Assembly: GCF_032854445.1 (NCBI RefSeq)
Contig: NC_088297.1
Span: 14,553,039 to 14,617,038, forward strand
From: Liolophura sinensis
Taxonomy: Eukaryota; Mollusca; Polyplacophora; Chitonida; Chitonidae
Length of the DNA stretch: 64,000 nt
Direction of reading: 5' to 3'
Position numbers and translations under genes: made by a program. The notes beneath the pieces are model-generated. The model was not told where the DNA came from and searched no databases. It worked only from the letters and a program-made list of their open reading frames with translations. Shown here in pieces: positions 11,347-63,400 of the stretch (position 1 is its first letter; every line of letters starts with the position of its first letter).

Positions 11347-14300
11347 CTATTCGGCTGCATAAGCTGCTTGTAACGCGTCCTCTAAATATTTCATAAATCG
11401 GTGGACATCATAGAAGGAGCAGTAAAGAGGGGCGGGAGCGATTCTGATGACACTAGGTTCCCGCTTGTCACACTGAAACAAATAAGAAATTCGTACACAC
11501 CTATACAATTTGCTATTTATTTATTCATTTGTTTCCTCATTTATTTGACTGTGGTTCAACACTACCCCGAAACTCACATTTTACTCACATGACAGCTGGT
11601 AAGATTTAGGATGAGGGATACCAGGGTGCTCAGAGTATACCACCTGCTCTTGGCAAGAAATCGTCAAACTTCCCTGCATGTGACAATACAGGTAAGCATG
11701 CCGTATCGAGGAAAGACAACTGGTCTTAAGCAAACGTTACACAAGAACGTTGTCAATAGCTAATTTTTTGACCAAGGACCCATGACAACAATAAAGGATT
11801 GAACCTAAGCAGATCTATGTGTGTAACAGTAAATGCTGTACTCAAGAACTGTATTTATTTATTTACTTATCTGAATGGTGTTTTACGCCGTACGCAAGAT
11901 TATTTCATTTATACAATGGCAACCAGCATTATGGTGAGAGGAAGCCCGGTGGAGCACAGGGGAAACCCACTGCCAAGGTTGCAGACCTTCCCATGTATCG
12001 AGACCTTCCCAAACCAGCATGAGCTGGACTTGAACTCACAGTGACTGCATTGGTGAAGGGCTCTTGAGTCATTTAGGCATAATTTTCTAAAAAAAACCTT
12101 TTGGATTTCTATTTTAAGCAATGGTGCATACACAGTTCTACAAAAAAAACATGCTCTGTTTTTCTTTGTACATGTAGTTTGTTGATTGTTTCTTTTCTTC
12201 TTTTGTCACATATTACATTTATTTTCAAATGACAAAAAGTTTCAGAATACAAAACACTCACCACAACACCTCTTTTCTCCAGTTCTTTGAACACCTCAAT
12301 GATGGGAATAGAGAAGATGAGTGAGAGTTGTGCGCCCCTTTGCTCTGGGTCAGAGGGCGTCATTATGTCCACATGGGGGCGCTGCCCAGTCTCTTTCCCA
12401 TGATACTTCTGCACAATCAACAGTTCCAAGTAGCCGGTCAGAAGCTTGGACTTGGTGCGAATTTGTGACATTGATGTCTTTTTAAAAACCTGCAAGAAAG
12501 TGTTAGTACCTACTTATCTGACTGATATTTGACAATCTCATTAGTACCTACTTATCTGACTGATATTTGACAATCTCAGCAAGACTTTTTCACACATATG
12601 TGATGGGACTCTGTCTGATTGGTGGCGAAAAAGGGAAGTTTCTGGAGTAAACCACAGATCTTCAGCGAGCTACTGGTGGACTACTGTATGTCACCTAAAG
12701 TTTACCATTTTTCAAGTCACACATTTTGCATGATTCTTATTGACTCATCCACTCTGTAGGGCCACATAATTGATTTTTTGGGGTTTTTTGTTTTCTTTTT
12801 TTTTGTAAAGTTTGATAAATTAAAGTGTTGACATCAAAAGAATTGTTCTTAGGTCATTACTTCCTTCTGAAGGTACATTTTTACATACCAAACTTTAGGT
12901 GAAATATTTGGCATCCGTCAAGCTCAGGTGCAAGACAATGAGAGATGCACCATCAACTAATTCTTGCCACAAACGCCCTCCCCCCCCCCAACCCAATGAA
13001 CAAACAGAGCAGGGAGTGCAGATACTTTCCTGTCCAACAATGGGTTTGAATCCACATCTCACTGGAAAAACTGACCATTCAGACATGAGCCAATCCTTCA
13101 GGAAAGTAAACCAATATTTCAGTTTACATTTTCTCATATACACTGAATTTTGACAAGTTTGTTAATTTTAACAATTTGTTTATAATTTTAGGATCTCGCC
13201 GTTTTTCAAAATGAATCCAAACCTTCAGCACTGGAACAAACTCACCTCTAGACTGGCCTCTATTGGAGGGCATAACAGCCCAGCTGGGTTAGTTATTCTG
13301 TAACCATAAGCACCTGGAGATAACACCATCTCTTTAAACATAAAGAACAAAAACAACATCTCTTTAAACATAAAGAACAAAAACAACATCTCTTTTAACA
13401 AAAAGAACAAAAACAACATCTCTTTTAACAAAAAGAACAAAAACCCCATCTCTTTTAACAAAAAGAACAAAAACACCATCTCTTTTAACATAAAGAACAA
13501 AAACACTATCTCTACATGTAATAATATCATCATCTTTAGAATATCAACCTACATTACCAAAGAGCTTGCCTACAGGAGACACACGAATGCAAAACTTCAG
13601 CTCAATACATGAAGCACTGAAATCAATGAATTTGATAATTTATGGTAATTAATATGCACACAGAGCAATACAATAAGTAAGGAATTTGGTCATTTACGGT
13701 ATTTAATATGCATACACCAAGTCAATGATGGAATATGCCCCTCCTGCTACTGTGCTCTACCTGTGAACAAACCCTGAGTTTAATACTTGCTGCACTTTTT
13801 GAGATACCACCCCTAATATTTTGTTTGACATTGATTCTAATACACAATACACTACGTCAGGAATTCAGTATACATACACACTGTGTCATCGATGGAATAT
13901 CTCCCTCGTGTTATTGTACTCTACAAGTGAGCAAACCCTGATCTCAATACCGGCATACTTTTTACATGTTTTAAGAAACCACCTCTAATATTTTGTTAAA
14001 CACTGCTTTCCCAGTTGTTGGACGCCAATGTTGACGGTACAACATAAGTTATGAGCGTACTTTGTAAAGGTGAGCTAATACCACAACCTCCGTGAAATAA
14101 AAAACAATAGCACCATCCCTGTCACATGAAGAGCAATAGCACCAACCCTGTAACATGAACAGCTATAGCACTATCCCTGAAACATGAAGAGCAAAAGCAC
14201 CAACCCTGGAACATCAAGAGCAATAGCACCATTCCTGTAAAAGGAAGAGCAATAGCACCATCCCTGTAACATGAACAGCAATAGCACCATCCCTGGAACA

Positions 14301-17300
14301 TCAAGAGCAACAGCACCATCCCTGTAAAAGGAAGAGCTATAGCACTATCCCTGGAACATGAACGGCAATAGCACAATCCCTGTAACATGAACAGCAACAG
14401 CACCATCCCTGGAACATGAAGAGTAATAGCACCATCCCTGAAACATGAACAACAATAGCACCATCCCTCTAACATGAAGAGCAATAGCACCATCCCTGTA
14501 ATATGAACAGCAATAACACCATCCCTGTAACATGAAGAGCAATAGCACCATCCATGGAACATCAAGAGCAATAGCGCCATCCCTGTAAAAGAAAGAGCAA
14601 TAGCACCACTGCTGTAACATGTAAAAGGAAGAGCAATAGCACTACCCCTTTAACATATAGAATATTAACACCATTTCTGTGTTAACACAGAGAACAATAA
14701 CGTTTTTATTTTCTCGTAGGCTAAGGTTACCCCAAACAACAAATCTTATTTCATTGATTTGTATATTTCACTTATATTTCACTTATGACGGACAGCATTA
14801 TGGTCAGAGGAAACTGGGCAGAGCCTTGACCATCCGCAGGATGCTGAAAGACCTTCCCACGTACATTCCCAGAGACAGCGACAGCATTAGTGGGAGGCTC
14901 CTGAGGACACTTTCACAAAGATGTCATCAACGTACAATAATCGCACATATAGGACAATGGCACAGTAATAGTGACTTCTGTTTGAAATATCGTAACACAA
15001 ATGTACGATAAAAAAATGTTGCACGTTGCTTTGTGAACAGAGCCCCCCATTATAAGGATGGACCAATTATAACACAAGCAAAAACATTTCTAACATATAC
15101 GACAGCTACATGCATGCATAGCATCTGACCACCTTTAACATAAAGGCCATCTTTAACAGCAACACCGCCATCAAAATTGCAAAGATATATTATAAATATA
15201 TACACATAAGCAAATGAAAAAAACAGTTAACAGAAAGGAATAAATCGCTAAAACAAATGTGTCACTCACTGTTATCCATTGTAAACCTGGTGCTCAGTTC
15301 ATGACCCCACCAGCCCAAGAGCTTAGGAAAGTCGTTACGGGCAAACTTCTCGTGAAGGAAAAACCCTGCCAGACAACCCGCACTGCTGTTCAGGTACTGA
15401 CAACACAGAACAGAACAAAATGGTGTATCAGATCTATATGCAGCCAGGTGACTCTGTAACATGGTGCATTATAAGTGGTACCCACATCGAGGCTGTAGGG
15501 CATTTCCCTTTTATTCTAGTGGTAGAAGTGTGGACATGACACTCATAGGTCAATGATTCCAACAGGGTTGCCCTGTCACAATACGCAGCTTTCGTGTTAC
15601 GTCATTACGACAACAGAATGACGTCCTATTGCAAAATGACGTCGTCACTTTACGGCACTAACTGCCTATCTTATAAGATGGCACTGATCGTGTTTAGATC
15701 AAAGTACCGGGATAACATCATTATTTTTGCAATATTGGGAAATCCATCCAAAAACATGATTCAGGAGATCAGTCTAATGCTTTTAAATTAGTACTCTATA
15801 TTCTATATACGACCCCATGTTAAAATTACCAGATTGGCCCTACTGTGCAGTAAAGCGACGACATTATATAACAAAGGGATGTCACTCTGTCGTCGTAACG
15901 TCATATCTGGAAACCTGCGTATTGGCGCTACGCCCGGGTGTGTTGGCATAGTTTAAGTACAGCTTTCAAATATTTTGGACAGTACCCTAATTCTTCTAAT
16001 TTTTAGGACAGACATTAGTAGTGCTGAAGGCAAAGAATTACATTTCTCCCAGTTTTTTTGAAAAGTAAAGATATAAATATGTTGCACATTAGATCTGAGA
16101 CTATGATATACATAGTTCCAGATTAGATGGACTAACCATGGGAAAAAAAAAGAAACTAAATATTCCTTTCACAATTTCTTGTACATTGGCTAAAAAGGGC
16201 AGACCAGGTTCCCACAAATTAGAAGAATTAGGGTCGATTCACTACCCTTAAATGATACACGGAAAGGAACTATAAGTCAAAGATTATGTTTTTATGCCAA
16301 ATGAAGAGAATTATGCCTGTTAAAAATTACCTGTTAAAAATTACCTGTTAACTACCCCTCTATATTATGCATATTTTTCGTCAATGGTCGGATTTTTCCA
16401 GAAATTACATCGTTGTAGACCTTGCTTGGAACTCAGTAAGCTTGAGCTCCCTGAGCCTGGTGAATCAAGTTGCTAAAGTGATAGCAAGGGCCACATGTAC
16501 ATGGGTCCTGCATGGCCTCTTCAGGTCACTTTAGTGCCCCATCCATGCCCCTACACCCGTCACCATTCGGTCGGTCTGTCCCCAACAGAGTTCCTTTTAA
16601 ACAGGGATCATCGCTGACTTAATTTCTGAGCTGACTGCTTAGGCCTTAAGAAAACTGTACAGTTAAGCCATTTTTACCTCTCCCCCTCCCCAAAGTAAAA
16701 GTTGAAAACACTGTTTGTACTGTTATATGTTATTACGCATTACAATCTGCACATTAAGAAATGAAGTCACAGTGCTTCATGTATCCTTTAAGTGTGAAGA
16801 AGACATGACAGGTCTAAAGACAGGGTGAATGTAATATGATGGAATATAAGCACTATCTCTATGCTTGAGGAACTTTCCCTTAGTCTAGTGGTAGAATTAA
16901 GCAAAGGACTCGAAAGGTTGATGGTTCAAACCTCAACAGGGTCGCCCTTCCATGGGATAGGATCCTATAGCATTTCACCACTAGGCCAAAGGGAGACAAC
17001 TGTTAACCTGATTGTAGATAGCTAGCGCATTCTACTCTACTACGTGCAATAACACTCGTTCTGTTTTTCTTTTTACCACTCATATGGCCATCTCACTAGT
17101 TTTTCAACATTTGTTGGATCATTGCTGTATATATTTCAAAATGACCTGACAATAGAGATATGTAAATAACCTACTAATATTGAACGCTTTAACATGTACT
17201 GCTTACTCCCAAGACTTAAATTTTGTTCAAAAAAGTTTTGCTCATGACTAAGTTGCACTGATTCACAGGTGTTTTGAGGATTGGTTGGGAGATACCAAGA

Positions 17301-20300: not shown

Positions 20301-23300
20301 AGGAACATACAAATGAGTCTATAGACTATTTTTTGTAGTCTTGCGAGAGCAAGACAATATTCCAATCAAAAAACAGATGACCGATCTGCTTACCTCACCT
20401 TGCACGACCCTTCAAACACATAGCAACATTTCCTACAGAATAACTCACTGCTCCGTGTAAATGATCAGTACATTTCACAAAACATTCTATTGCCAGTTAC
20501 TCCCGTGATGCAAACTGCAGCAGTGCTTACCTCCCTTGGTTCAAGAGCAATGACGCTGGTATCTGGATCGTAACCATGGAGACGAATCTGTGATTCAACT
20601 GCATACTGGACAGAAAACATTCAAGGAAAAGAAAAAACCCTCAAAATAAAAATTAGCAAAAGGGTTGATGAATTAAATTTTTTTAACTAACTTTAAAAAA
20701 AGAACACATTAAAAATGGTATGTCCTTAAATGCTAGTTTGCATAGTATGAAAACTAATAAAGAAAATTACTTTTCGTTTTCGCCATTTCGTTTCTTTTTT
20801 GTTCAATGGTCTTATCCTCTAAAACATGAGCATCCCAATGTTTATTTCTTCAATATTTCTGCTACTTTATGGAAATATCCTAGATAGTGCAGTTTACCAA
20901 AACTTACCACATCAGATGGGAAAGCTTTACTTTCTAACAGAATTTTATGTCTCTGAGGTGTGGGACGATAAAATGAAATCTGAAAATAAAATTCAAATGA
21001 TTTATTATTATGATAGAATTATTGTATCATTGCATTTCAGAACGTTTGTAATTTAGTGACAGTCTCACTGATTCCAAAAAAATGTTGTTTTTTTTTTGTT
21101 TTTTTTATAATGAAAACTAGTCACAAAAGTACCTTACTTATTTGAACTAATATTGTACCCAATATTGCAAAAATTTATTAAAAAATTTTAAAAAAATATA
21201 AAAATTTATTCATTTCTTTTTGTTGGTGTTTAACATAACTTTTCATACTTTAAAAGTATATCTGATTACCCACCCGTATCTTGCTCAAGTCAGATAAATG
21301 AAGACAAAGAAAAAAATTTTAGATGGCTAATAAAACATGAATAAAGGCAAAAATGTTTTGTAATGCAGCACACTATAAGCATTTTATTAAATTGGCAGGC
21401 TTAAAAAGTTTTCATTGATATGACAGTGCTCTGGGACAGACAAATTACATACCTATAAAGTTATCAATTTATCGTAAATTGGCAAAATTATAAAAAAAAA
21501 AAAGAAAGAAAAAAAAAACCCACTGCAAACTGAATCCAATTTTCCATGAAGAATCAATACCATGGACAAGACTGACAATGGTAAGGAGAACAGTAAATGT
21601 ATTACCAGCAGCAGGTGTAGATTGACGGTAAGGCCATTCATAATGGCAACTTCCCCTGGTTTGGCTCCTGTAAAACAATACAAAAATAAAACAATGCGAT
21701 GTTAAAAAGACTATACTGCAGATTTTTGGCTCAAGAACAGCTCAGATCATTGGCTTTTAGTAAATATCAGACTACTACATCATTAAAAAGATTCTAGTTT
21801 GAATAAGTTGTAGTTATATACCGGAGATTTTTGACTCAAGAACAGCTCATATCATTGGCTTTTAGTAAATATCAGACTAGTACATCATTAAAAAGATTCT
21901 AGTTTGAATAAGTTGTAGTTATATACTGCTGACAAACTTGTTTACGTGTCATTGTGATTCATGTTAGAGATCGCGACAACTGAGGACGAGATGATACTGA
22001 ACAGATGTGTTCTTTATGTAACATGAACTGAATATTCCACCAATGTCGATCTATCCTGTTTCTGTCCAAGTATTAACTGCCCCAAGCTTATATAACTACA
22101 TAGGCCTATTTACATTGTTGGAAATCAGCTATACACATTAGAGATACACATTATTTAATCTGAACTGAAAATACCACCAATTATGGTTATATTAGTTTCA
22201 ATATCTAGTTATTATGCCTTGCCTCCTTTTCACTATGTTAGGAACTCAAAGATTATAGAAGCTTACCCTGCCGTTAAGGTACTTGGAAGATGACAGAAGA
22301 GCTTGAGAATAACTTAACTTTTCGCGCTTCATTTATTTAACTTGCATGAACTATTGTTTGTTAATTTTACTATAATAAAATGTTCATCTATAACTATTTT
22401 CCTAATCTCTGTTTTCTATGAGTCTGTTATTTCTTCAGATCTTTATTCTGTTTTATATTTATTACAGCACCCAGGAAGACTACAGTTTACTAGCATAACT
22501 TTAATGTCAGTTCTTCCTCTGGGATTTTATGTTTGGTGATTTATTAGAGAATTTCCTACAATAACAATTATCCCGGGGGTTGGGTGCGACATTATTCAAG
22601 CATATTCTTTAGGCTTTATTCCGTGTGGACTAATAAGATTATACTTTTTGTGAAGCCCTGAAATTGATCAATCCAACCAATCTAGTTTCGACTCCAAAAT
22701 CTTATTATAAATGTATATAAATTGAACTGAAAGTTGCTCTTTCATATGTAAAAAGGTTAAAGAATTTGGGTACTCAAGAACTGATCACTAATAAGACGGC
22801 TGTCAGGTTTATGGCTGGAGGAAACCTGCCACCGTTTTCCAGGTACCTGACAAACCTCCTGACATAATGCCACAGCCAAACATGTGATAACTGGATTTGA
22901 ACCTGTGACCTCAAAGGTGTGGTGCAGGTCGACAAGGATGAGAGGATGTCAATTTCAACCACAGAGTTCAGCTGCTTAACTTTGGCCATTACTTACCACA
23001 AGGTTGCAAGACTTCAGGGGACATTTTACCCACAAGTTCTCTCGCAAGGGAATTTTTTCAAACATTTAAGTTAAATTTATCAAGCAATATTCACAAAAAT
23101 TCTGGGGAATTATGGCACATGCTGTAATTTGGGCACCTGTAAATGGTATCAACAATGTCCTTACATTTTACCCTGCTTACCAACAAGTTTTCCCATGACC
23201 TCATCCAGCTTTTCGTCACACAGCGACCATGGAGATTCTCCCGAAAAGTGACCAATGACTCCCCTGAAAACAGAAAGACAAAATGAGTGATGCATCAGCC

Positions 23301-30600: not shown

Positions 30601-32022
30601 GTTTGATGTCTTCGGCATGATACTTCAGTTTGGCGTAATGGACTTGCGCGGCCACAAGATGACTCTGTATATGTACACACATCTAATGACTCATCGTCAC
30701 ATGATTCAAAACCTGTTTAGGACAAAAATTAGGACAGTAAACCCCTAGCATATATATACATACAATGTATGAAATAGTTAACTTTCTGTACCTTTTTTTT
30801 CAGGATTTAACAGGAATAGAGGATATTCAAAGATGTCGGGAAATATTACAGAGACATAACTGGGACATTGAGGTAGTTCTCTTCATTTTCTTTGTTTGAA
30901 AAGGCTAAATCATGATATATGTAAGAGAAAGAATTCTGTTTGTTACTTCATTATAATGAAAAGACTTTTATGTTTGTCACATCATGATAAGAGAAAAACT
31001 GTTACATTTGTTACATCATGATAAGAGAAAAACGGTTATGTTTCGTACATCATGATAAGAGAAAAACGGTTATGTTTGTTACACCATGATAAGAGAAAAA
31101 CGGTAATGTTTGTTACATGATGATAAGATGAAAACAGTTATGTTTGTTACATCATGATAAGAGAAAAACTGTTATATTTGTTACATCATAAGTGAAAAAT
31201 GGGTATGTTTGTTACAACATAAGTGAAAAACAGTTATGTTTGTTACATGATAAGAGGAAAACAGTTATGTTTGTCACATCATGATTTGAGAAAAACTGTT
31301 ACATTTGTTACATCATGATAAGAGGAAAACAGTTATGTTTGTTACATCATGATAAGAGGAAAACAGTTATGTTTGTTACATCATGATAAGAGGAAAACAG
31401 TTATATTTGTTACATCATGATGAGAGAAAAACAGTAATGTTTGTAGCATCATGATGGAGAAAAATGGCTATATTTGTAACATCATGAGAGAAAAAGGGTT
31501 GTGTTTGTTACATTATAAAGAAAAGCAGCTATGTTGTAACATCATGATAAGAGAAAAATGGTAATGTTTGTTACATTATGATAAGAGGAAAACAGTTATA
31601 TGTGTTGCATCATGATAAGAGAAAAAGGGTTATGCTTGTTACCTCATAGAGAAAAGCGGGTATGTTCGTAACATCATGATAAGAGAAAATTGGTAATGTT
31701 TGTTACATCATCTTGAAAGAAGAATGTTACAATTGTTACATCATGATAATAGAACACTTGGTTATGTTGGTTACGTTTGTTGTTCTGTTGAATATGTTAC
31801 ATAACATACATCATGAAAAGAGAAAGACCATTACATTTGTTACCATCTTTTTCAGGTGGCTGTACAGGACACGTTCAATGAGAGAGAGGGAGCCCCTTCA
31901 GTGTTTACCCCACCCCAGCGACAGGACCCTCGCCTCCCACCCATGAATCTTCAGCCCTCAGACCAAAGGTAAGTTTTCATGAAAAATTGACTCTTACAAT
32001 TGTTTATTTGTGGGTGTGTGTA

Positions 32023-32070
<48 letters not shown>

Positions 32071-35000: not shown

Positions 35001-38000
35001 TAACACTTATCACGTGTAATTTCACTAAATCACCCCACTGTATTAATTAAAGTTAGTGAAAAGTCTTCTTTTTTTTTTAAATCGTTTTTCTAATCACATT
35101 TCTGACTTTTTTCTGACGCACGATTTTTCATCAACTCATTACCTTTGTGTAGACTAAGTACAGTGGGTACAGCACTGCGATTAGTTGATGGAAAATATGA
35201 TGAAATTATATGTGATTTACTGTAATACCCATGAGCTTATTAACGAGTTCAAATGTATGAACTTCAACATATCATGAACTCATTCTGCTGGTAACAAATG
35301 TTACAAAGGTTTGAGCTCTGTTGTTCCTATTTTATTACAGTAATTCATCAACCTTTGCGCATGTTTGCAAGGTGTTTATTCCTGCATATTTTGAAGGCAT
35401 TTTTCTGTGTAGACTGATACAATTACATTTTTTATGAAGCCCTGAAATTTGGCCAATACAACCAATGTACCTTGGTCTCTAAAATCAACTTCAAAATTTG
35501 CATAAACTTCACTGAAAGTTGCTCTTTCATATCCGAAAAGGTTGAGGAATGTGTGTGTGTTCATAAAGCCTGTATGTAGTACACAAGCACTACAACATCA
35601 CAGAAGAAAGTGATTCGCTCCACTGCGTGACCTGTTTGTGCGGCTTGTCCTCAAGTCTGTCATTTGTGTTGTATGTTATAGTTGTCACAGACCCTGTAGG
35701 AGATGTAGTGTCGTTTATTCACGTGTTTGAGGAGCAGTTTGGAACAGCTCACCCCACCTTTTATCAGGGAACATATAGTCAGGTAAGTACAGTGGTAGGG
35801 TGCAATTTTTATTTGCTCAGTTGGTTAGTGCGCTAGCGCGGTGTAATGACCCAGGGGCATCTCACCAATGTGGTCACTGTGAGTTCAAGTCCAGCTCATG
35901 CTGACTTCCTCTCCAGCCGTGCTTGGGAAGGTCTGTCAGCAACCAGCGGATGGTTGTGGGTGTCCCCCAGGCTCTGCCCGGTTTCCTCCCACCATAATGC
36001 TGGCTGCCTTCATATAAATGAAATATTCTTGATTACGGCATAAAACACCAATCAAATAAATAAATAAATAAATACATTTTTTTTTTTCTTATTGCTGAAA
36101 AGGAATATCTATGAGCTGTAACAAAGCAAAATAATTTATATCTTCTTGACAACTGTCAAACTGTGGAGAGAAATAAACACGCAGCATAAAGGCCAACAAA
36201 ACCTGCATAATACTCTGATGCATACGGCCTGCACTCGCAACGCTCCACATATATTAAATTAAAAATATCTGATGTGGAATGTTGTGTTTGTTGTCAAGCT
36301 GAGAGGTAAGACCACAGTTGACACCTGTTTTGAACTGCAGACATCGTTTGGAAAGGTCTTATTGGACTTGGTATGAAAACGGTGTATAGTTGTGGCCGTG
36401 GCTGTGATACTTAGCCAGCGCACCATAAAGATAAGAGTTGAAAAACCCTAATTTTTTAGCCGCCTCTACAGCCAACATTTTGAAACTTTCTGAGATAACT
36501 ATAGAGTCTAGAGAAATAACTTTGAAGCTTGCATCCCGAGGGACACAAAAAGTCATTTTTAGAGATCAAAAAGATTGAAGATCTGCAGTAGCTGCCTGGG
36601 GCCACAGGTACTGTATTGGGTGGGTTTATATTCTGTATTGAGCTCTGCATTCTGCAGTTTACTCTTCACTGGATTTACATGCATTTCATGATCTCCTGTT
36701 TGCAGGCATTAAATGATGCTAAGCGAGAGCTGCGGTTTCTCTGTGTCTATCTCCATGGAGATGACCATCAGGATACCCCAACTTTCTGCAGGTGGGTAAT
36801 CAACAGCTGTTCCCCTTTAATACTCCGCATAATGAACTGTTAAACTACATGTAAAAATTGTATTTTAGCAAAAGTTTAGCAATTTTCAAGTGACACATTT
36901 TGTTGATTCTGATTGACCAGCTTAGATAGCACAGTTGGTAGAGCGTCCACTTCAGAAGCGGTAGATCCAGGGTCAATCCTAGGTCGAGTCAAACCTAAAA
37001 CCTTAAAAGAGAAAGTTGTAACTTCCTCACTTGGCGTTCAGCATGAAGGGGATAGTGCAAAAACTGGTTGACCCGTATCAGTATAATGGCTCGGGTGGGG
37101 CGGCTTACTTGCCTTCGGTAAGTCATCTCAGTGAAGCAGCACTAGATAAAAGAGTGGTGGAAATCCGTCCTGCAACAAGGAGGCACATTACATACACTCT
37201 TAGGATTCCTTCTTCGCCATATGACTGAAAAATTGTTAAGTACGACTTTGAAACCCCAAGCACTCACTCACTCACTCACTGATTCTCATTGATTCATTCA
37301 CCTTGTAGGGCAACTTAAGAGTTTTTTGTGAAGTCTGATTAATTTCTTATCAGAAAAAAGCGTTTGATTAAAAGTATAATTTGTAAGGTGCATATGGGTG
37401 TGTGTTGTTAAGGACTGCTTAACCCCCTGTGTGGTGCATGTGGGTGTGTGTTGTTAAGGACTGCTTAACCCCCTGTGTGGTGCATGTGGGTGTGTGTTGT
37501 TAAGGACTGCTTAACCCCCTGTGTGGTGCATGTGGGTGTGTGTTGTTAAGGACTGCTTAACCCCCTGTGTGGTGCATGTGGGTGTGTGTTGTTAAGGACT
37601 GCTTAACCCCCTGTGTGGTGCATGTGGGTGTGTGTTGTTAAGGACTGCTTAACCCCCCTGTGTGGTGCATGTGGGTGTGTGTTGTTAAGGACTGCTTAAC
37701 TCCCTGTGTGGTGCATGTGGGTGTGTGTTGTTAAGGACTGCTTAACCCCCATGTGTGGTGCATGTGGGTGTGTGTTGTTAAGGACTACTTAACTCCCTGT
37801 GTGGTGCATGTGGGTGTGTGTTGTTAAGGACTGCTTAACCCCCATGTGTGGTGCATGTGGGTGTGTGTTGTTAAGGACTACTTAACTCCCTGTGTGGTGC
37901 ATGTGGGTGTGTGTTGTTAAGGACTGCTTAACCCCCATGTGTGGTGCATGTGGGTGTGTGTTGTTAAGGACTACTTAACTCCCTGTGTGGTGCATGTGGG

Positions 38001-41000
38001 TGTGTGTTGTTAAGGACTGCTTAACCCCCATGTGTGGTGCATGTGGGTGTGTGTTGTTAAGGACTGCTTAACCCCCCTGTGTGGTGCATGTGGGTGTGTG
38101 TTGTTAAGGACTGCTTAACCCCCTGTGTGGTGCATGTGGGTGTGTGTTGTTAAGGACTGCTTAACCCCCTGTGTGGTGCATGTGGGTGTGTGTTGTTAAG
38201 GACTGCTTAACCCCCCTGTGTGGTGCATGTGGGTGTGTGTTGTTAAGGACTGCTTAACTCCCTGTGTGGTGCATGTGGGTGTGTGTTGTTAAGGACTGCT
38301 TAACCCCCATGTGTGGTGCATGTGGGTGTGTGTTGTTAAGGACTACTTAACTCCCTGTGTGGTGCATGTGGGTGTGTGTTGTTAAGGACTGCTTAACCCC
38401 CATGTGTGGTGCATGTGGGTGTGTGTTGTTAAGGACTACTTAACTCCCTGTGTGGTGCATGTGGGTGTGTGTTGTTAAGGACTGCTTAACCCCCATGTGT
38501 GGTGCATGTGGGTGTGTGTTGTTAAGGACTGCTTAACCCCCCTGTGTGGTGCATGTGGGTGTGTGTTGTTAAGGACTGCTTAACCCCCTGTGTGGTGCAT
38601 GTGGGTGTGTGTTGTTAAGGACTGCTTAACCCCCTGTGTGGTGCATGTGGGTGTGTGTTGTTAAGGACTGCTTAACCCCCCTGTGTGGTGCATGTGGGTG
38701 TGTGTTGTTAAGGACTACTTAACTCCCTGTGTGGTGCATGTGGGTGTGTGTTGTTAAGGACTGCTTAACCCCCATGTGTGGTGCATGTGGGTGTGTGTTG
38801 TTAAGGACTACTTAACTCCCTGTGTGGTGCATGTGGGTGTGTGTTGTTAAGGACTGCTTAACCCCCATGTGTGGTGCATGTGGGTGTGTGTTGTTAAGGA
38901 CTACTTAACTCCCTGTGTGGTGCATGTGGGTGTGTGTTGTTAAGGACTGCTTAACCCCCATGTGTGGTGCATGTGGGTGTGTGTTGTTAAGGACTGCTTA
39001 ACCCCCATGTGTGGTGCATGTGGGTGTGTGTTGTTAAGGACTACTTAACTCCCTGTGTGGTGCATGTGGGTGTGTGTTGTTAAGGACTGCTTAACCCCCT
39101 GTGTGGTGCATGTGGGTGTGTGTTGTTAAGGACTGCTTAACCCCCTGTGTGATGCATGTGGGTGTGTGTTGTTAAGGACTGCTTAACCCCCTGTGTGGTG
39201 CATGTGGGTGTGTGTTGTTAAGGACTGCTTAACCCCCCTGTGTGGTGCATGTGGGTGTGTGTTGTTAAGGACTGCTTAACCCCCCTGTGTGGTACATGAA
39301 GATTTAACATAACTTGTTACTCAGTATCATAAAAGCCCACAATGCATTTGTACTGGCACACTTTTCAGGTTTTAATGACACACAGTTCTCAAAAGTATGT
39401 ATTGCCCGGGCCCCCGAAGCCCATGGCGCCCCTCTCCAAAATCATCAGGGGGCGATAACTTGTTACTACTAATGTCTGAGAGAGAGTTAACAAATGTCTG
39501 AGAGAGAGTTAACAAACTTTCACTTGCACCGTCTTTTACACTTGGTTTCTGATGTCACAGGACTAGAAAACACTGATCATCAGCTGCTGACAAGTGAATT
39601 TTGAGTTTGCAGGCTTGGAATGAGCAGTTGCTGCTTTGACTTAGGCTTTAAGTCAGGAGGTTTATCAGGTGGCTGGTGATCAAATGGCAGTGGTGGGCAG
39701 TGGTTTCCTCCAGGCATTCTGGTTTCCTCCACCCATAAACCTGACTGGCATTTATATTAATGCCACTCCAATTTAGATTGACCTGTCCCGATAGCACAGT
39801 TGGTAGAGCGTCCAAGTCCAGAGCAGTAGATCCAGGGTCAATCCTGGGTTGTGTCACACCCAAGACCTTAAGAAGGAGGAAGTTGTAATTTCCTTGCTTG
39901 GCGCTCAGCATTAAAAGGATAGTGCAACGACTGGTTGACCCGTATCCGTGTAATGACGCGGGCGGAGCGGCTTACTTTCCTGGGGTAATTCACCTCAGTG
40001 AAGCAGCACTAGGTGAAAGAGCGGTGAAAATCCGTCCTGCAACAAGGAGGCACATCACATGCACTCTAAGGATTCCTTAATCGTCACATAATTGTTAAGT
40101 ACGACGTTAAACCCCAAGCTCACTCACTCACCCCATTTTAAATTGTTGTCTTATGGGCAGAATAAATCTTTTTCTTATGTTGGAGTAGAGTATAAATACA
40201 AAAATGAAGCTTAAAATTCATGTAATTTGTGGGAAATGTGGACTGCCCCAACTGTTTTTTTTTTCTGTTGGAGACATGTTTACGTGATCAGGAAGTCTTG
40301 AAAATGGGAAAATCATAAATATATCTAGATCAGACAAAATAAAAAGGTGGATTGTTTAGTGTCAGATCGCCTATGAAACATAAAATAAAATTGGTTTTGC
40401 TTAAATGAGAAATTGTTGAAGTTTGAAAAAGTAAAAGTAAAATGTTTTTTTTTTTTTGTATTGCAGGGAAACCCTGGGGAGCACAGAAGTAATAGATTTC
40501 ATCAATAGCACAATGTTATTTTGGGCCTGTAATGTCAACAGTCCTGAGGGGTACAGAGGTAAGTTATATCCCAGGAGGCTCTAAATGGCTGATTACTGAC
40601 CACAGGACATCTTTTTGAGCCAAGCAACCATTAGAGTGCTGACGCGGCACAAGGCCCCAGGAGCCTTTTACCAATGCAGTCACTATGTGTTCAAGTCCAG
40701 CTTATGCTTGCTTCCACTGCGGCTGTACGTGGGAAGGTCAGCCAGCAATGTGGATGGTGGTGGGTTTCCTTTGGGCCTTGTCTGGTTTCCTCCCATCATA
40801 ATGCTGGGCGCCGTTGCATGAGTTAGTGAAACATTTTTGAGTATGGTATAAAACACCAATTAAAACTCATAAGTAAAATGTGTAATGTCGTATACACACT
40901 GAACTTGCAAATTAGTGAACTTGTAAACATTTGGGAAATTTTGTTGCTTTATTTGTACTTTGAGCAGTTCCATTTTCCACCCTTGAAACTGACTACAGTC

Positions 41001-44000
41001 TATTAAGTGAGACATTCGTGTTCAAATGCAAATTGTTCATGTCACACTGGCGATCATACGCGGGAAGGCCTGCCAGCACCCTGCGGATGGTCGTGAGCCC
41101 CCACCCCTGGGCTCTGCCCAGTATATTCCCACCGTAATTCCTACATGCTGTCATATAAGTGAAATACTCTTGAGCACAGCGTATAAGACCGATCAAATAA
41201 ATGAATAAGTAAAATGACAATCCGTAAGTCGTGAAAGAACTGGATAGTGAGATGCATGTACATGTAAGTATAAATACATGTATGTCTAGTTTCTTACCTC
41301 TCGTATGTACATCTGCTTAGCTATTTCAGTGTGATCTTTATAATTGCAGTGTCACAAGCCCTCAAGGAATATACCTACCCGTTTATAGCTTTGATTGTCC
41401 TTCGTGACAACAAAATGACTGTTGTCTTGAGGATAGAGGGGCCAATCAGTAAGTACACCTGAAACTTATTTATATATGTTACCTGGTATTTACTGCACTT
41501 GATGTTATAAATGTACATATTTGACATATCAAAGTTGTGAACAACTGTAACATGTGATAGGCTTACACTGTATGCGTGTTGGAAAGTGCATAATAGCCTG
41601 CCCTAGGAATGTTAATGCATTTCTAGTTTTGCCTGCACAAAGTACAGATGTAGCTTATGTCCAGTAAAGGCTTCCAATAATAGTGAAAGCAATGTTGTAG
41701 TAAATTTTAGAGGTGGTGTCGTTAAAAGGTGTACGTGTATTGAGCACATATTATGCACACTTGTAGAGCACAACCACACGGGCTGGTGGGGGGGGGGGGC
41801 ATTGCAGTTGCATTGTGTGCATATTAAAGACTGAAAATACAAAATTCACGACTTTAGTACTTAGGTAATGAGCTGAAGTTTTGCATTGGAGCTCTTTTCT
41901 CCTTGGAACAGTTTTTGCATTACTGTAAATGACCTAAAAATTCGATCACAAAAAGAGCATTTAAATATCATGAGATTGTACTTGTTAAAATGTACATTTT
42001 CCCAGTAGGATGTCATCCTTCCTTCCAGACACCTCTCTAAGCACCTTTCTAAAATACATAGAACCTGGAATCTGGAAAAATGAGAAATTTTTACGTCATT
42101 TAAGGTATTTCGAAAACAACTTATAGATTTGGCTTTATGACATCTAAACTGTTGTATTTAATACGGTGACATAAAATCTGCTGTCAAGAACAGAAAATTT
42201 CATGAAATATCATCTTAAAACTTACAAGATATATGTCAGTTTCAAAAAGTCAGAAATCGCTGATCGTTTTATTATTCCCATTTTGACTCTTGTTTCACAC
42301 CTCGTTACAGGTGGCCCTGACCTGATAGGTCGTCTGACCCGGGTCATGGAGGATAACGAGCCGTCGTTAGTGGCTGCTAGAGCCGACAGGTGAGTCGAAT
42401 CAGAAGGAAATGGGAGATCTTAAAAACCAGGTCTTAGTGTTGATGTCAATCGGTGACAGATCAAGCCATCTTTAAAATCATGTTGGTTTGGTTAATCAAT
42501 TTAAAGATTCCTAAAACTGATTCAATTAATGGATGGTATGTAATGCAAGCTGTAGCATGAAACAGTTTTCACGATGCACAGTGTTGTTTCTGTTGCCATA
42601 GAGATGAGAGAACATTTAACCAGACACTCAGACAGCAGCAAGATGAAGCCTACAGGGAGTCTCTAAGGGCAGATCAGGAAAAGGTGAGAGTTACTCCTCT
42701 TGGAAATGTGTTTCGTTCCCCGGTTACACTCTATGACTGTTTGCTGATTATCTGTAGTCATATTTCTGCGAACACATTCCAAAGCTTTTTAAAAGTGAAG
42801 TTCTTACACAAACATGTAACACTACCTTAATTCCTCAAGCTTTTCGCATGTGGAAGAGCTACCTCCAGTACAATTTATGCACGTTTATGCATTGATTTTG
42901 GAAACAACACTACATTGGTTGGAGTGACCCTTGTCAGGGCTTCAAGAAAAGTGTAATTTTGTCAGCCTGCACAGAATAATGCCTTGAGAATAAGCTTGAA
43001 TAAACACCCTGCAAACATAAGAAAATGTTAAAGAATTACAATATGTTCATGTTACTGCACCACATAGGCGTGTGCTGTTAGTATTCTATCATATTATACC
43101 AGCAATGCGATGGCTGTGAGTTCAAGCCCAGCTCATGCTAACTGGCTTCCTAACTGTCATACATGGGAAGGTCTGCCAGCAACCTGCGGGAGATCGTAGG
43201 TTTCTCCAAGGCTTTCCCTGGTGTCCTCCTACCATAACTCTGGCCGCCAGCTTATAAGTGAAATATTCTTGAGTATGGCCTAACACCAGTGACATAAAGA
43301 AATAGTTAATTTATATCATACCATGTGTGAAGCAGCCACCCGACGACATTTTCATTCTAATCTAACGGTGACATTATACGAGGAGAAATAAGTTATTTTT
43401 GTAAGCTTTTCACAAAAAATCTTAGGAAAGGAGGGCGGTCTTGGTTTGTTTTGGACCAGTAACGATTTACTTAACTCTGGTTAAGGTGAAGGAAAAAGAT
43501 TATTGTATGCATTTATATTTAATTTATGTTAAAAATAAATGAATAAATGGCTTGATAGGAGTGATAAAAGAGTGTAGTAATGGTATGTTGTTGGAAAATA
43601 GGCTGTAGGAGTAGGTGATATGGGAATTTTGAACTCTTATCGCCGATGGTAAAAGGAGACCGACTGAACCATGTGACATGTGAGAAATGTTAGGCAAAAA
43701 TTATTGATCACATTTATTATAACCTGGGCATCTGAAAAAGTTTCACCAAAAAGTTATATGGAGTAGATGAACGACGTAGAAAATTGGGGAGCTTAGAGGT
43801 TGTGATCCTAGGGGGTTCTTTACATGAAGGGGTGTCATGTTTATGCTCGGAATATGACGAGACACCTGATTGGTTAATTAATGTAAACAGTAGTTGCCCA
43901 GCATTTTTGATAACTCGCATGATACAGTAGGACAAATTTTATATTCAGCGAAAAAAAGAATTCAGTCTCAAAACTCCCCCATTGGTTACTGGTTCTATTT

Positions 44001-47000
44001 TGGGGTGTGTAAAATAAGGGAAGCTGTGTGACAGATTGTAGTATGATCATTTGCTTTAGGAAAGAAAAAAGCGGGAGGAGAAAGAAGAAAAGGAGAGAGT
44101 TGCTCAGTTAGCGCGGAATGAGGAGCTGGAAAACCAGAGACTGCTTGAGGTGAGAATGTTTACACGGTTGATCAGTCAGTCAGTCAGGGCCAAAGTTAAT
44201 GGATTATTAATGAAAAGTTTCGCGCCTGTTTTCACAATAAACATCCGAAGCTCAGTAAATGGCTTCAAGATGGAGAAAACATTAAAATAAAAAAGTTCAG
44301 GTGAAAGAGTGAAAGAGAAGTTAGTTGTAGGTGTGGTTTTAAATACCTGTTTGGAATTTTCTTTAAAGAGAAAAAGACGCTTAAAAATAATTTTTGTAAG
44401 GTGGGTAGAAATACAGACGGCATTCATGTTCATGAACTTGCATTCAGCATACAAGCTTGTGTGTTCATGAAGAATACAAGCTAGTGTGTTCATGAAGCAT
44501 GCAAGCTAGTGTGTTCATGAAGCATACAAGTTTGTGTGTTCATGAAGCATACAAGCTAGTGTGTTCATGAAGCATGCAAGCTAGTGTGTTCATGAAGCAT
44601 ACAAGCTTGTGTGTTCATGAAGCATACAAGCTTGTGTGTTCATGAAGCATGCAAGCTTGTCTGTTCATGAAGCATACAAGCTTGTGTGTTCATGAAGCAT
44701 ACAAGCTTGTGTGTTCATGAAGCATGCAAGCTAGTGTGTTCATGAAGCATACAAGCTTGTGTGTTCATGAAGCATACAAGCTTGTGTGTTCATGAAGCAT
44801 ACAAGCTTGTGTGTTCATGAAGCATACAAGCTAGTGTGTTCATGAAGCATACAAGTTTGTGTGTTCATGAAGCATACAAGCTTGTGTGTTCATGAAGCAT
44901 ACAAGCTCGTGTGTTCATGAAGCATACAAGCTCATGTGTTCATGAAGCATGCAAGCTCGTGTGTTCATGAAGCATGCAAGCTCGTGTGTTCATGAAGCAT
45001 GCAAGCTTGTGTGTTCATGAAGCATGCAAGCTTGTGTGTTCCTGAAGCATGCAAGCTTGTGTGTTCATGAAGCATACAAGCTTGTGTGTTCTTGAAGCAA
45101 ACAAGCTTGTGTGTTCATGAAGCATACAAGCTTGTGTGTTCATGAAGCATACAAGCTTGTGTGTTCATGAAGCATACAAGCTTGTGTGTTCATGAAGCAT
45201 ACAAGCTCGTGTGTTCATGAAGCATGCAAGCTAGTGTGTTCATGAAGCATGCAAGCTTGTGTGTTCCTGAAGCATGCAAGCTTGTGTGTTCATGAAGCAT
45301 ACAAGCTTGTGTGTTCTTGAAGCAAACAAGCTTGTGTGTTCCTGAAGCATGCAAGCTTGTGTGTTCATGAAGCATACAAGCTTGTGTGTTCTTGAAGCAT
45401 GCAAGCTCGTGTGTTCATGAAGCATACAAGCTTGTGTGTTCTTGAAGCAAACAAGCTTGTGTGTTCCTGAAGCATACAAGCTTGTGTGTTCATGAAGCAT
45501 ACAAGCTTGTGTGTTCTTGAAGCAAACAAGCTTGTGTGTTCCTGAAGCATACAAGCTTGTGTGTTCATGAAGCATACAAGCTTGTGTGTTCATGAAGCAT
45601 ACAAGCTTGTGTGTTCATGAAGCATACAAGCTAGTGCAGAAATGTATTTTTTAAGTTCATGTTTTCAGAAATCTAAATCCCATTCACCTTACGTGTATTC
45701 CACCATTATGATGTTCAAGTCTATATGATACTTCAATACGAGTCCTGCCACGCTGAAATTTATTTATTTATTTTTTTAATTGGTGTTGTATGCCATACTC
45801 AAGAATATTTCACTTATACGACGGCAGCCAGCATTATGGTGGGAGGAAAGTGGGCAGAGCCTGGGGGAAACCCACGACCATCCGCAGGTTGCTGGGAGAC
45901 CTTCCCATGCCACTTCAAGACACAGTATATATACACACACCTAATGACCCCTTGTAAAATCCCAAGCATACATACATGTACGGTGTCCCCAGCATGATAC
46001 TTCCTAGGCAGCAGCATTTCGGCAGCACAGACAGCCTGCCGCAAGAAGACACATTATATACACACACCTAATGACTCCTCGTCGTCATATAAGTGGAAAA
46101 TTACGATGCGATGTTAAAACCCAAGCGCACATACATGCAAGCGTCTACCTGACATCCGAGAAAGGGTGTGACCAGTAACTGACAATAGGTCAGTCAGTGG
46201 CATTGTGGTTTGCTCCGCCAGTCAAACTGTCCGTCCGTACGTGGGAAGGGCTGTCAGCAACCTGCGGATGGTTGTGGGTTTCCCCCGGGCTCTGCCTGTT
46301 TCCACCCACCATAATGCTGGCCACCGTCGTATAAGTGAAATATTCTTGAGTACAGCGTAAAACACCAAATAAATAAATAAATAATAACCAGTCAAACTGA
46401 TTAACATCCTATATCTGAAATTTCCTGACAAGTCTGAAAATATTTGTTTGTTTATTTGATTGGTGTTTTACGACGTACTCGTGAAGAATATTTCACTTAT
46501 ACGATAGCGGCCAGGTTTATGATGGGAGGAAGCCAGGCATAGTCCGAAAGGGAAACCCACGACCATCCGCAGGTTGGCAGCAGACCTTCCCACATACTAG
46601 TTTGAAAATAAGCAGTAGTACAAGACAGTGTCCTGCACCAAAGAATATATTGTCGGTGACCAACTGTTCGGTACAAGACAAAAATGTCATGTAAATAATA
46701 TTTTATCTTGTTTTTTAATGTTGTGAATAGCGGAAAGATTTGTCATTATGTCCTGCACCAATTTAAACATTGTATCCAGGCTTTAAACAACAAATTTAAT
46801 CAAATTACATTGGGGCAGCCCAACAAATGGTCTGGCATGAAGGTACTGTTGTGATTTGAGCCAAATTATTTTTGAAAAGACAATAAAACTGCGAAACAAT
46901 TAAACTGTCAAAAGCAGAGGAATAATCTTTGTGCGTATTTGCTGATTTGCCTCCCTTGTAGGAGCGCGAGCGCCAGAAGGAGGACCTGAAGACAGGTATC

Positions 47001-60478: not shown

Positions 60479-63400
60479 ATGGCGGACGATCGCGGCAGAG
60501 TGATGTTTGTGGGGATGAACTGTCTTGACATCAGCACTACGTGCCAGGTTTATCCGGAAGAGGATTCCGATCACGAGTAAGGCATAGTATTTGTTGGACG
60601 ATGTGTAGGTTCAATTCCGGCCTTGTAGACAGGGAATTTGGGAATTTGTCCCCGCTCTTACTGTTCGCACCTTGCCTTTGATGACAGAAAAAGGATGGAT
60701 CAGAATCGAGGCCAATTATTTGACAGTTGAGATAGGATTTCCTTAGTTAAAGGAGAAGAAAACATAAAAATGGTGTCAAAATCAGGTGAACGAGCGTCAA
60801 AACTTATTTGCAAATATGATCTTTAATATTTTTTTGGATCTTTTTTTTTTCAAGAGAAAAGGGTATTTGAAAATATTTTTGTATGGTGGGTGTTTGGGAC
60901 CAACTTTTGGTATTTATCGTTGTTGCATAATAATGTTCTAAATAAGGATGTGATACTTGTCTAATAAATTTATTTGAATATACAATGGTTAGCTGAAAGA
61001 ACAAATTCTAGTGCAAAAATATTTATTAAACCTGTGTTACATCCTCATTTATGATATTTGTAAATAAAGACTGTAAATACCAAAATGTGGTCCCAAATAC
61101 CCACCACCCAAGAATTATTTTCAAGTGTTTTCTCCTTAAGGAAAAATCAGAAAAAATATTGAAGACCACATTTAGAAATAGCTTTTCACACTCTTTCATC
61201 TGAACTTCATGCCATTTTCATGTTTTCTCCACATTTAAAAGCCACATTTTTTTTTCACGCTTGAACGACGGTGCCACACCTAAAATTGAGCTTAGCCAAG
61301 GGATAACCTAGACTTACCTGTCTCTCACACCAACCAATCCGTGACGATTATGTATCTGTTTGAGCGGTAGACAGCGTGCGGCTGTTTTCCCAATCAAACG
61401 TTCGTTGGAGACAAGTTGTGGCAGGAAGAAACCGAGCAAAGCCCCGGGGAATCGCACGACTACCCGCAGATTGCTGCAGACGTTCACGTTCGGTAGGAGA
61501 GGAAGCCAGCATGAGCTGGACTTGAACTCACTGCAACCGCATTGATGGAAACTGTGACATCAAGCCTATAACGACATGTTTCCGCCATATTGAGTTTTCT
61601 TGGTTGGTGTTGACTTTCCTGACGAATGTTTGAACACTATGAATCCTTTGGTACTGGTTCATCCGTTTTTTTTTTTCTTTTCTAGCGCGCGTATATAGGC
61701 CCACGTCACACTAAACAACGTGTCACTTGTATGACGGTAATCATTTGGGTTTATATAAGTGGACAAAACTTGACAGAGCCTAGCGAGAACACCGCACCTC
61801 ACATCACCATGTACATACATGACTTAAAGCCGCGGCCGCATCACCCGGATCTGGATCTTGGCGGATGGGGTTGCAGCAAATATCAATGTAATGGGAAGGC
61901 ATATTTTTTTCTTTTATTTCCTCAAGGTGGCGCTAGTGTGAAACAGGACCTTGGGTATTGCTACGTCACAGATGTATTGTAACGCAACATCTACAACGTT
62001 ACAATGTATCAGTTTCTACTGTAACATCGTACTGCCTTTAATTTTGACGTCATAATGGCATGTTCCCATTAAAATTAACCTCTATTATTACATTATCGTC
62101 TTCTTCCAGCTGCCTGGACATGTTGTGGGTGCGCGGTGGAAATGCGTCTAACAGCTCGACGGCGTGTGCCCTATTGGGAGGCAACACCCAATACATGGGC
62201 AACCTGGCGGACACCTACGAACTGCAGTTAGTATTAACAGTTATATTGTCTCTGTTGAACTGAATGGCGTATTGACTAAGATATCGTCGCCAAATACCAG
62301 CACTGGCATCTTTTCGTCGACGCCATATACCGGTACTGGTCTAGATCTTTCATCGCCGCCATATACCGACACCGGTGTCCTTTCATCGACGCTATATACC
62401 GGACCTGGTATCTTTTCATCGACGCCATATTCACAGGCACTGGTATCTTTTCATCGACGCCATATACACCGGCACTGGTATCTTTTCATAGACGCCATAT
62501 ACACCGGCACTGGTATCTTTTCATTGACACCATATACACCGGCACTGGTATTTTTTCATAGACGCCATATACACCGGCACTGGTATTTTTTCATAGACGC
62601 CATATACACCGGCACCGGTATCTTTTCATAGACGCCATATACACCGGCACTGGTATCTTTTCATAGACACCATATACACCGGCACTGGTATCTTTTCATC
62701 GACGCCATATACACCGGCACTGGTATCTTTTCATTGACACCATATACCCCGGCACTGGTATTTTTTCATAGACGCCATATACACCGGCACTGGTATTTTT
62801 TCATCGACGCCATATACACCGGCACCGGTATCTTTTCATAGACACCATATACACCGGCACTGGTATCTTTTCATTGACACCATATACACCGGCACCGGTG
62901 TCTTTTCATCGACGCCATATACACCGGCACTGGTTTTCATCGATACCATATACACCGGCACTGATATCTTTTTATACGCTCATGTAGTTATGTATTCAAC
63001 TGGTCTTTAGTATTTTGAGGTGAGGTTTATCCTTTAATAGAGTCGGGCCATGGTTCCGCGAGAAATTATCCGACAAATATCTTCGGCTGACATTGTCATC
63101 AGGCGCTGAGTTCCAACACACCTAGCACGGTATTCACCAAGATGTCCACAAAAACAGAGCCGTTAGGCGAAGGGGCTACAAATTCAATGTTTAGATGAAA
63201 TAGTAATGAAAGTGGTGTAAAGAAGTGTAAAGCCTATTTTTGCACGATGCCTCTCCTCTTATATGCTTAAACGCCGCAAGGTCTTCGTGGCGCCTTTACC
63301 TTTTAAATTGCGATATTCTCTAAAAAGAATCGAAAATTGTTGATTCTTTTAAAAGTGTTATAAAATACACGGAAATGCAATCTTTGAAGGCCTGTTCGCA

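Follow-up and report, generated by a model that had tools for sequence, protein, structure and literature searches.

Tandem repeats matching a 3´ splice junction of a kynureninase gene, probably copied from it

Minisatellites that cross exon-intron boundaries have been described in amphioxus as "mirages"; they are reported in Adh3, in the globin genes BflGb6 and BflGb9 and in troponin C, with similar repeats in PGBD5 (PMC3087553, PMC3902484). According to the same reports, many mirage units include AG/GT signals, cluster boundaries escape homogenization, and unit lengths are quoted as 10-72 bp for Adh3 and 150-160 bp for the globins (PMC3087553, PMC3902484). RT-PCR in amphioxus suggested that regular splicing persists (PMC3087553). 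Here we describe a comparable arrangement in the kynureninase gene KYNU, which lies on the minus strand of a 64,000-nucleotide stretch of DNA (the window).

The KYNU junction and its repeat units

The features at the junction are as follows.

15270-15396, minus strand: KYNU exon upstream of the intron that holds the arrays (tblastn with a human KYNU query; sequence and frames)
13246-13331, minus strand: KYNU exon whose first 12 bases lie within the repeat (kynureninases 3e9k and 2hzp, PDB)
13332-13333, minus strand: acceptor AG giving a protein of conserved length (phase fit; acceptor score 6.81)
13320-13331, minus strand: 12 nt of exon lying within the repeat, AGATGGTGTTAT (match to both unit consensuses)
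13332-13511, minus strand: near array, built of six 30-bp units that all end in AAAG (TRF; unit table)
14091-14647, minus strand: far array, mostly 29-bp units (TRF, acceptor scoring, unit table)

The upstream exon ends ...MDN A/GTGAGT at 15270 in phase 1 (donor GTGAGT, 15269-15264), and AAAG/AG.ATG at 13331 finishes the split codon to give K. The spliced junction, MDNKMVLSPG, aligns without gaps to human KYNU and to three of four bacterial loci; the fourth locus gave no kynureninase-type alignment in this region. Alone, exon 13246-13331 matches 3e9k and 2hzp weakly (E 0.53 and 0.63); joined to its neighboring exons, the match to PDB kynureninases is strong (E 2.8e-61). We infer the exon boundary at 13331 from this protein alignment, and the exon-proximal AG there is most likely the acceptor still used by the spliceosome. 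Two other AGs were considered and rejected: the second AG of AGAG (13329) would shift the frame into a stop, and the in-frame AG at 13313 would cost six residues of a stretch of conserved length.

The near array directly abuts this exon, the acceptor AAAG/AG forming the end of its last unit, and TRF reports it at 13322-13513 (period 30, 6.4 copies, 95% matches). The far array is reported at 14105-14621 (period 29, 17.8 copies, 83% matches); with its degenerate edge units the far block runs from about 14711 to 14060, in the same orientation as the near array.

The near and far unit consensuses align on the same strand with a score of 16. This was reached by none of 2000 dinucleotide shuffles (mean 1.2, maximum 10) and by none of nine other repeat consensuses from the window (best 9). 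Among random 29-mers, 7 of 2000 reached 16 in a first draw from the whole window and 0 of 2000 in a new draw outside 13290-14720 (maximum 12). Over the first 12 bases of the exon, 11 agree with the near consensus and 10 with the far one, and beyond them the agreement ends; of 13013 other 12-mers on the sense strand of the gene, none reaches 11 matches to the start of the near unit.

The initial annotation, made from the letters of the sequence, had proposed most of this. The exon with its acceptor at 13331 agrees with both the phase and the gap-free protein junction. The six tandem 30-bp copies were placed at 13329-13508, three bases off their true span of 13511-13332, and the roughly 18 further related units at 14105-14660 correspond to the 17.8 copies and the larger block found here. 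Homology of the arrays, for which a comparison of the consensuses with chance had been proposed, held up when that comparison was run, and the inclusion of about 12 exon-start bases in the repeat was borne out by their register.

We favor copying from exon to array rather than from array to exon. At exon positions 1, 6, 9 and 11 the base is that of one or both block consensuses, and such sharing would be expected if coding constraint had kept the source unchanged. The reverse, in which an intronic minisatellite predated the exon start and reached the acceptor by expansion or conversion, contributing its AG together with the opening 12 bases of the exon in place of the old junction, we consider unlikely. 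It would accord with the partial variability of the residues concerned (K-M-V-L here, K-L-Q-L in human, different again in three bacterial loci) and with the mismatches to the exon, at positions 6 and 11, in the two units next to it, which are thus not its closest copies. However, protein length is constant relative to the human and three bacterial enzymes, and a replacement would have needed luck to preserve it.

One array, probably interrupted by a dispersed element

Four further minus-strand features and one to which no strand was assigned bear on how the two blocks are related.

13512-13547, minus strand: candidate degenerate unit bordering the inserted element on the near side (local alignment weak, at score 20)
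13555-14072, no strand assigned: dispersed repeat of about 500 bp between the array blocks, ends approximate (internal repeat and second copy)
14060-14090, minus strand: candidate degenerate unit on the element side of the far block (score 18 against the far consensus)
14648-14711, minus strand: 5´ edge units of the far block, nearer to the near consensus (alignment scores, identities)
41627-41912, minus strand: the other copy of the dispersed repeat, with no unit arrays next to it (nhmmer)

We think it probable that a 3´ splice junction was tandemly duplicated into a junction-spanning minisatellite, which was then split by the element and whose halves drifted apart. A segment of about 30 bp, comprising the last ~18 intron bases, with a T-rich tract and the AG, plus ~12 bases from the start of the exon, would have been duplicated, probably by slippage or unequal exchange, with the array growing into the intron and away from the exon. 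The ~500-bp dispersed element would have inserted into the array later. The exon-side piece would then have been homogenized to the 30-bp type and the distal piece to a 29-bp CAG/GGATGG type, while old intermediate units would persist at the outer edge of the far block. This order of events is our inference. Two features argue for a single array of origin: units of the near type at the far block's outer edge, and the element between the blocks. Segment 14720-14650 scores 60 against the near consensus and 32 against the far (neither score is reached by any of 197 random segments), and the identities of the 5´ edge units, near versus far, are 25/34 versus 21/33 and 20/33 versus 17/32. The earlier proposal that both arrays grew from the junction thus stands as to the copying of the junction and the homology of its copies, and is refined to one interrupted array in place of two growths.

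The dispersed repeat holds two diverged core copies (13698-13836 and 13860-14008), forming a 71% internal repeat with the cores 164-172 bp apart; the locus at 41912-41627 carries one core copy. Element copies were compared by BLAST and nhmmer, as a MAFFT alignment misplaced the left part. At the second copy, the unit profile found no match at E up to 10, and its flank, 41628-41570, does not resemble the units, with scores equaled or exceeded by 179 of 194 and 135 of 196 random segments. A search of 13514-14110 for inverted repeats of at least 16 bases, shorter ones being outside its scope, returned no pairs. The near and far blocks look like one old array split by a mobile-like element, with two reservations. 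The evidence that the element occurs without units comes from one other copy, and the edges facing it are weakly unit-like, which blurs the insertion point. At 13512-13547, the score of 20 is reached by 3 of 196 random segments against the far consensus and 11 of 195 against the near; at 14060-14090, 4 of 196 score as high against the far consensus, and the segment is not above chance against the near one (149 of 194).

Acceptor strength and splice choice

Acceptors were scored with a matrix built from 10 other KYNU acceptors, and compared with 728 other AGs from across the gene region, including its exons. The true acceptor scores 6.81, as high as or lower than 14 of the 728. Upstream of it, six AGs follow at 30-bp spacing (13361 to 13511), four of which lie above the 95th percentile (5.17). 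Extensions to all six are open and in frame and would add 10 to 60 residues, as the initial annotation had foreseen in stating that each near copy used would keep the frame and add 10 hydrophobic residues; most of the 10 are indeed hydrophobic. By a branch-point consensus, the best candidate branch points for 13331 lie 40 and 33 bases upstream, in the preceding unit. An AG-free path from at least one of the top four candidates exists for 8 of the 11 KYNU acceptors; 13331 is among the three without one, which leaves it lacking a clean AG exclusion zone. With the branch point at 40 or 33 bases, the AGs of the preceding unit would fall within ~10 bases of it and would probably be skipped.

Could the near units serve as alternative acceptors in vivo, adding 10 to 60 residues immediately before the active-site exon segment and giving isoforms that depend on allele length? 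The open frames, the four strong upstream AGs and the placement of the true site's candidate branch points in recurring unit sequence would allow it, but we regard it as improbable. The segment has equal length in the human and three bacterial enzymes, and the amphioxus RT-PCR suggested that regular splicing is undisturbed by such repeats (PMC3087553). In addition, the near array varies at five positions across its six units and all five changes would alter the amino acid; there is thus no sign that the array has been kept as coding sequence, five sites being too few for proof. It is similarly improbable that the near units form a splicing ladder coded by length, in which certain tissues or alleles use acceptors 30 bases apart and alleles differ in their number of rungs. 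If they did, kynureninase isoforms would gain 10n hydrophobic residues shortly ahead of the active-site segment.

The far array might instead act as a decoy or source of cryptic exons that cuts KYNU output, by drawing off splicing factors or yielding stop-bearing transcripts, which we think very doubtful. Of its 18 regular unit ends, 13 score above the same 95th percentile and four score higher than the true site. The earlier statement that each far unit carries a good acceptor goes too far: the unit ending at 14554 lacks an AG and several other unit ends are weak. Moreover, the scoring matrix was built from 10 sites, and the scores of units with one ancestor are not independent evidence. Downstream of the far acceptors there is a single donor-like site with at least 7 of 9 matches to MAG/GTRAGT (13553, 7/9), and the three far acceptors shown of 17 listed all read into a stop; on these grounds the proposed role of the far array as a source of cryptic exons was not upheld.

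Finally, it is highly improbable that the arrays are part of a mobile element (Helitron-like, for example, with tandem core repeats) inserted beside the exon and matching it by chance: the element between the blocks is dispersed with core repeats ~164 bp apart, and ~160-bp repeats are described for bivalve Pearl/Helentron elements (PMC7492417), but the other element copy lacks units, and a match of at least 11 of 12 at a fixed place has a chance of about 4 per million and is found in none of the 13013 other gene 12-mers.

Wider setting and comparison with described systems

Among 45 exon ends in the window (22 of KYNU and 23 of FAF2, the latter approximate from tblastn), one lies inside a repeat array, against a random mean of 6.7, and four lie within 50 bp of one, against 8.9. 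The 24 arrays were merged from TRF rows, leaving out a mononucleotide run at 32025 and rows at 63418. The KYNU junction is thus the only overlap among these ends, and a general enrichment of tandem repeats at splice sites is rejected, since the overlaps fall below the random means. A search of 13200-15400 for known structured RNAs gave no match at gathering score, and a search for tRNA genes across the window (bacterial code) found none.

The SINE-like sequences of the window are presumably of molluscan type, and on that account the host is probably a mollusk. If so, this case would extend boundary-spanning minisatellites beyond the lancelets. A literature search found no published kynureninase repeats, and a single targeted search found no molluscan boundary-spanning minisatellite, of which a published case may still exist. 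KYNU offers a clean case of a splice junction copied many times, apparently without wrecking the gene. It also sets up a natural experiment on the spliceosome's choice of one AG among near-identical tandem sites; the apparent split by the dispersed element would also provide a relative date for the array.

Several described systems share parts of this arrangement. In human IFI6 (6-16/G1P3), a minisatellite is described as providing multiple splice donor sites (cited in PMC2572611); the likeness is one of description, as the IFI6 repeats give donors and those of KYNU acceptors. ABCA7 is reported to have an intronic VNTR tied to splicing (PMC5954066), and is likened by description to the intronic repeat of KYNU. 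The inserted element, also by description, is like the non-autonomous Helentrons Pearl and Cg_HINE of bivalves, its cores being 164-172 bp apart where Pearl repeats measure ~160 bp (PMC7492417); it has the short array of ~160-bp cores and the dispersed copies that characterize Pearl/Helentron elements.

The KYNU array resembles the mirage type described above. Like mirages, it consists of tandem short units (by TRF) beside a functional exon, and its unit spans an intron-exon boundary, here placed from protein alignment, including the splice signal. Its 30- and 29-bp units fall inside the range quoted for Adh3 and are shorter than those of the globin mirages. Unlike the mirages in these accounts, it lies in KYNU, in a host that is probably not a lancelet, and has apparently been split in two by a dispersed element.

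KYNU and its acceptor at 13331

In composition the window is eukaryotic (38.7% G+C, genes with introns). KYNU, the kynureninase gene, occupies about 24581 to 11362 on the minus strand. A tblastn search queried with a human sequence recovered its exons in order, with weaker chance matches alongside; its joined last exons match human kynureninase among solved structures (phmmer, E = 2.8e-61). Eleven KYNU acceptors were placed from tblastn ends and splice signals. The exon upstream of the array-bearing intron ends ...ATG GAT AAC A/GTGAGT at 15270, in phase 1, and joining this end to AG ATG GTG TTA TCT CCA GGT at 13331 yields a protein stretch with no gap against human MDNKLQLIPGVCGFRISNP. The alignment at this junction is also gap-free with three of four bacterial loci; the fourth matched query residues 1-24 only and does not align as a kynureninase beyond them. 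Because the joining is gap-free with human and three bacterial loci, the protein evidence argues that 13331, the acceptor chosen in the initial annotation, is the correct one. Two other candidates were rejected: use of the AG two bases past 13331 brings in a stop, and use of the one at 13313 would cost six residues of a conserved-length stretch.

Elsewhere in the window lie FAF2, recognized with a human probe, and, near 2.9-4.3 kb, an UNC45-like gene spotted by eye in translations. Long minisatellites are also present.

Other long minisatellites of the window
30922-31754, 34-bp units, between FAF2 exons, starting 41 bp after the approximate exon end 30881
37387-39298, 93-bp units, between FAF2 exons
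44446-45636, 25-bp units, between FAF2 exons
62296-62972, 35-bp units

Origin of the junction arrays

Repeats at the KYNU junction
13511-13332, minus strand, near array: six 30-bp units immediately before exon 13331-13246
about 14711-14060, minus strand, far array (far block): units mainly 29-bp
about 13555-14072, dispersed repeat between the blocks: two diverged copies of the core, spaced by 164-172 bp
41912-41627, minus strand, second copy of the dispersed repeat: one core

The first 12 exon bases extend the near unit, with 11 of 12 positions identical, and the match stops there; among 13013 other 12-mers from the KYNU sense strand, none comes as close to the unit start. With rotation and strand left free, the consensus units of the two arrays, AGATGGTGTTTTTGTTCTTTATGTTAAAAG and GGATGGTGCTATTGCTCTTCATGTTACAG, align best on the same strand with a score of 16, which was reached by 0/2000 dinucleotide shuffles and by none of the consensuses of nine other repeats in the window. 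Among 29-mers drawn at random, 7 of 2000 reached 16 when taken from the whole window and none of 2000 when taken from outside 13290-14720 (maximum 12). A profile built from 22 units (6 near, 16 far, irregular far edge units omitted) found nothing convincing in the window outside both blocks (best E 1.7). The initial annotation had described both arrays as probably grown from a copied KYNU 3´ splice junction, including about 12 exon bases; the observation is sound and the proposed origin largely right, to be sharpened in that an insertion probably divided what had been one array.

The outer edge of the far block (14701-14650) scores 60 against the near consensus and 32 against the far consensus, values equalled by none of 197 random segments for either; units of the near type are therefore present at either end of the whole region. 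The edges facing the dispersed element are weakly unit-like: random segments were as good in 4/196 cases (far consensus) and 149/194 (near consensus) for the far-side edge, and in 3/196 and 11/195, respectively, for the near-side edge. The copy at 41912-41627 has no units beside it: the profile gave no hit there, and the one flank compared directly was not unit-like. Judged from these sequence comparisons, the region was probably a single array split by insertion of the element. Alternatively, there may be two related arrays between which the element merely happened to land. The element itself (13555-14072, 41627-41912) is possibly Helitron-like, of the Pearl type.

An open frame of 175 aa (14125-14649, minus strand) runs through the far array, crossing all three unit frames because 29 cannot be divided by 3; we regard it as the consequence of a unit that lacks stops and not as a gene. 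A SINE-like dispersed repeat, presumably of a molluscan SINE type, lies at 14746-14864, with 15 further matching places listed in the window.

Acceptor strength and consequences of acceptor choice

Acceptors were scored with a matrix trained on 10 KYNU acceptors, 13331 excluded, few as training sites go (leave-one-out scores 0.2 to 10.6), against 728 other AGs of the KYNU gene stretch, exons included (95th percentile, 5.17). The true site at 13331 scores 6.81, and 14 of the 728 background AGs score at least as high. The 95th percentile is exceeded by four of the six upstream AGs at 30-bp spacing in the near array and by 13 of the 18 regular far unit ends, four of which lie above the true site; since all units derive from one another by copying, these scores amount to one observation, not many.

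Scored against the branch-point consensus, branch-point-like As for 13331 lie within the preceding unit, 40 and 33 bases before the acceptor, and the AGs of that unit intervene. Eight of the 11 acceptors placed in KYNU have, among their four best branch candidates, one with no intervening AG; 13331 belongs to the other three. An AG very near the branch point would probably be skipped, which would allow the exon-proximal AG at 13331 to win; the same closeness could equally let some transcripts take an upstream AG. Use of the six near acceptors would add extensions of 10 to 60 residues, open and in frame. All five variable positions in the near units would alter the peptide, and there is thus no sign of selection as coding sequence, although five sites are few. 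Of the 17 listed far acceptors, the three displayed all lead to a stop, and downstream of the far block is one donor-like site (7/9 match).

Two further duplications lie near KYNU acceptors. A perfect 2 x 38 bp duplication (12503-12578), which sits at a doubled TACTAAC/TACTAAT branch-point-like motif, ends 14 bases before the next acceptor (12489), and a 2 x 105 bp duplication (21712-21926) lies about 45 bp upstream of the acceptor at 21667.

Comparison with known boundary minisatellites

A human minisatellite with multiple splice donor sites is reportedly the subject of a 1995 paper (cited in PMC2572611). In duplicated human genes, tandem repeats have been linked to new introns and to cryptic splice sites (PMC2812944). 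Minisatellites that span exon-intron boundaries, named mirages, are described from amphioxus in Adh3, troponin C and two globin genes, and PGBD5 has similar repeats; these accounts report or suggest regular splicing, report length instability, and note that the boundary units of a globin gene mirage are not homogenised (PMC3087553, PMC3902484). In its anatomy, the KYNU array shares the features of mirages.
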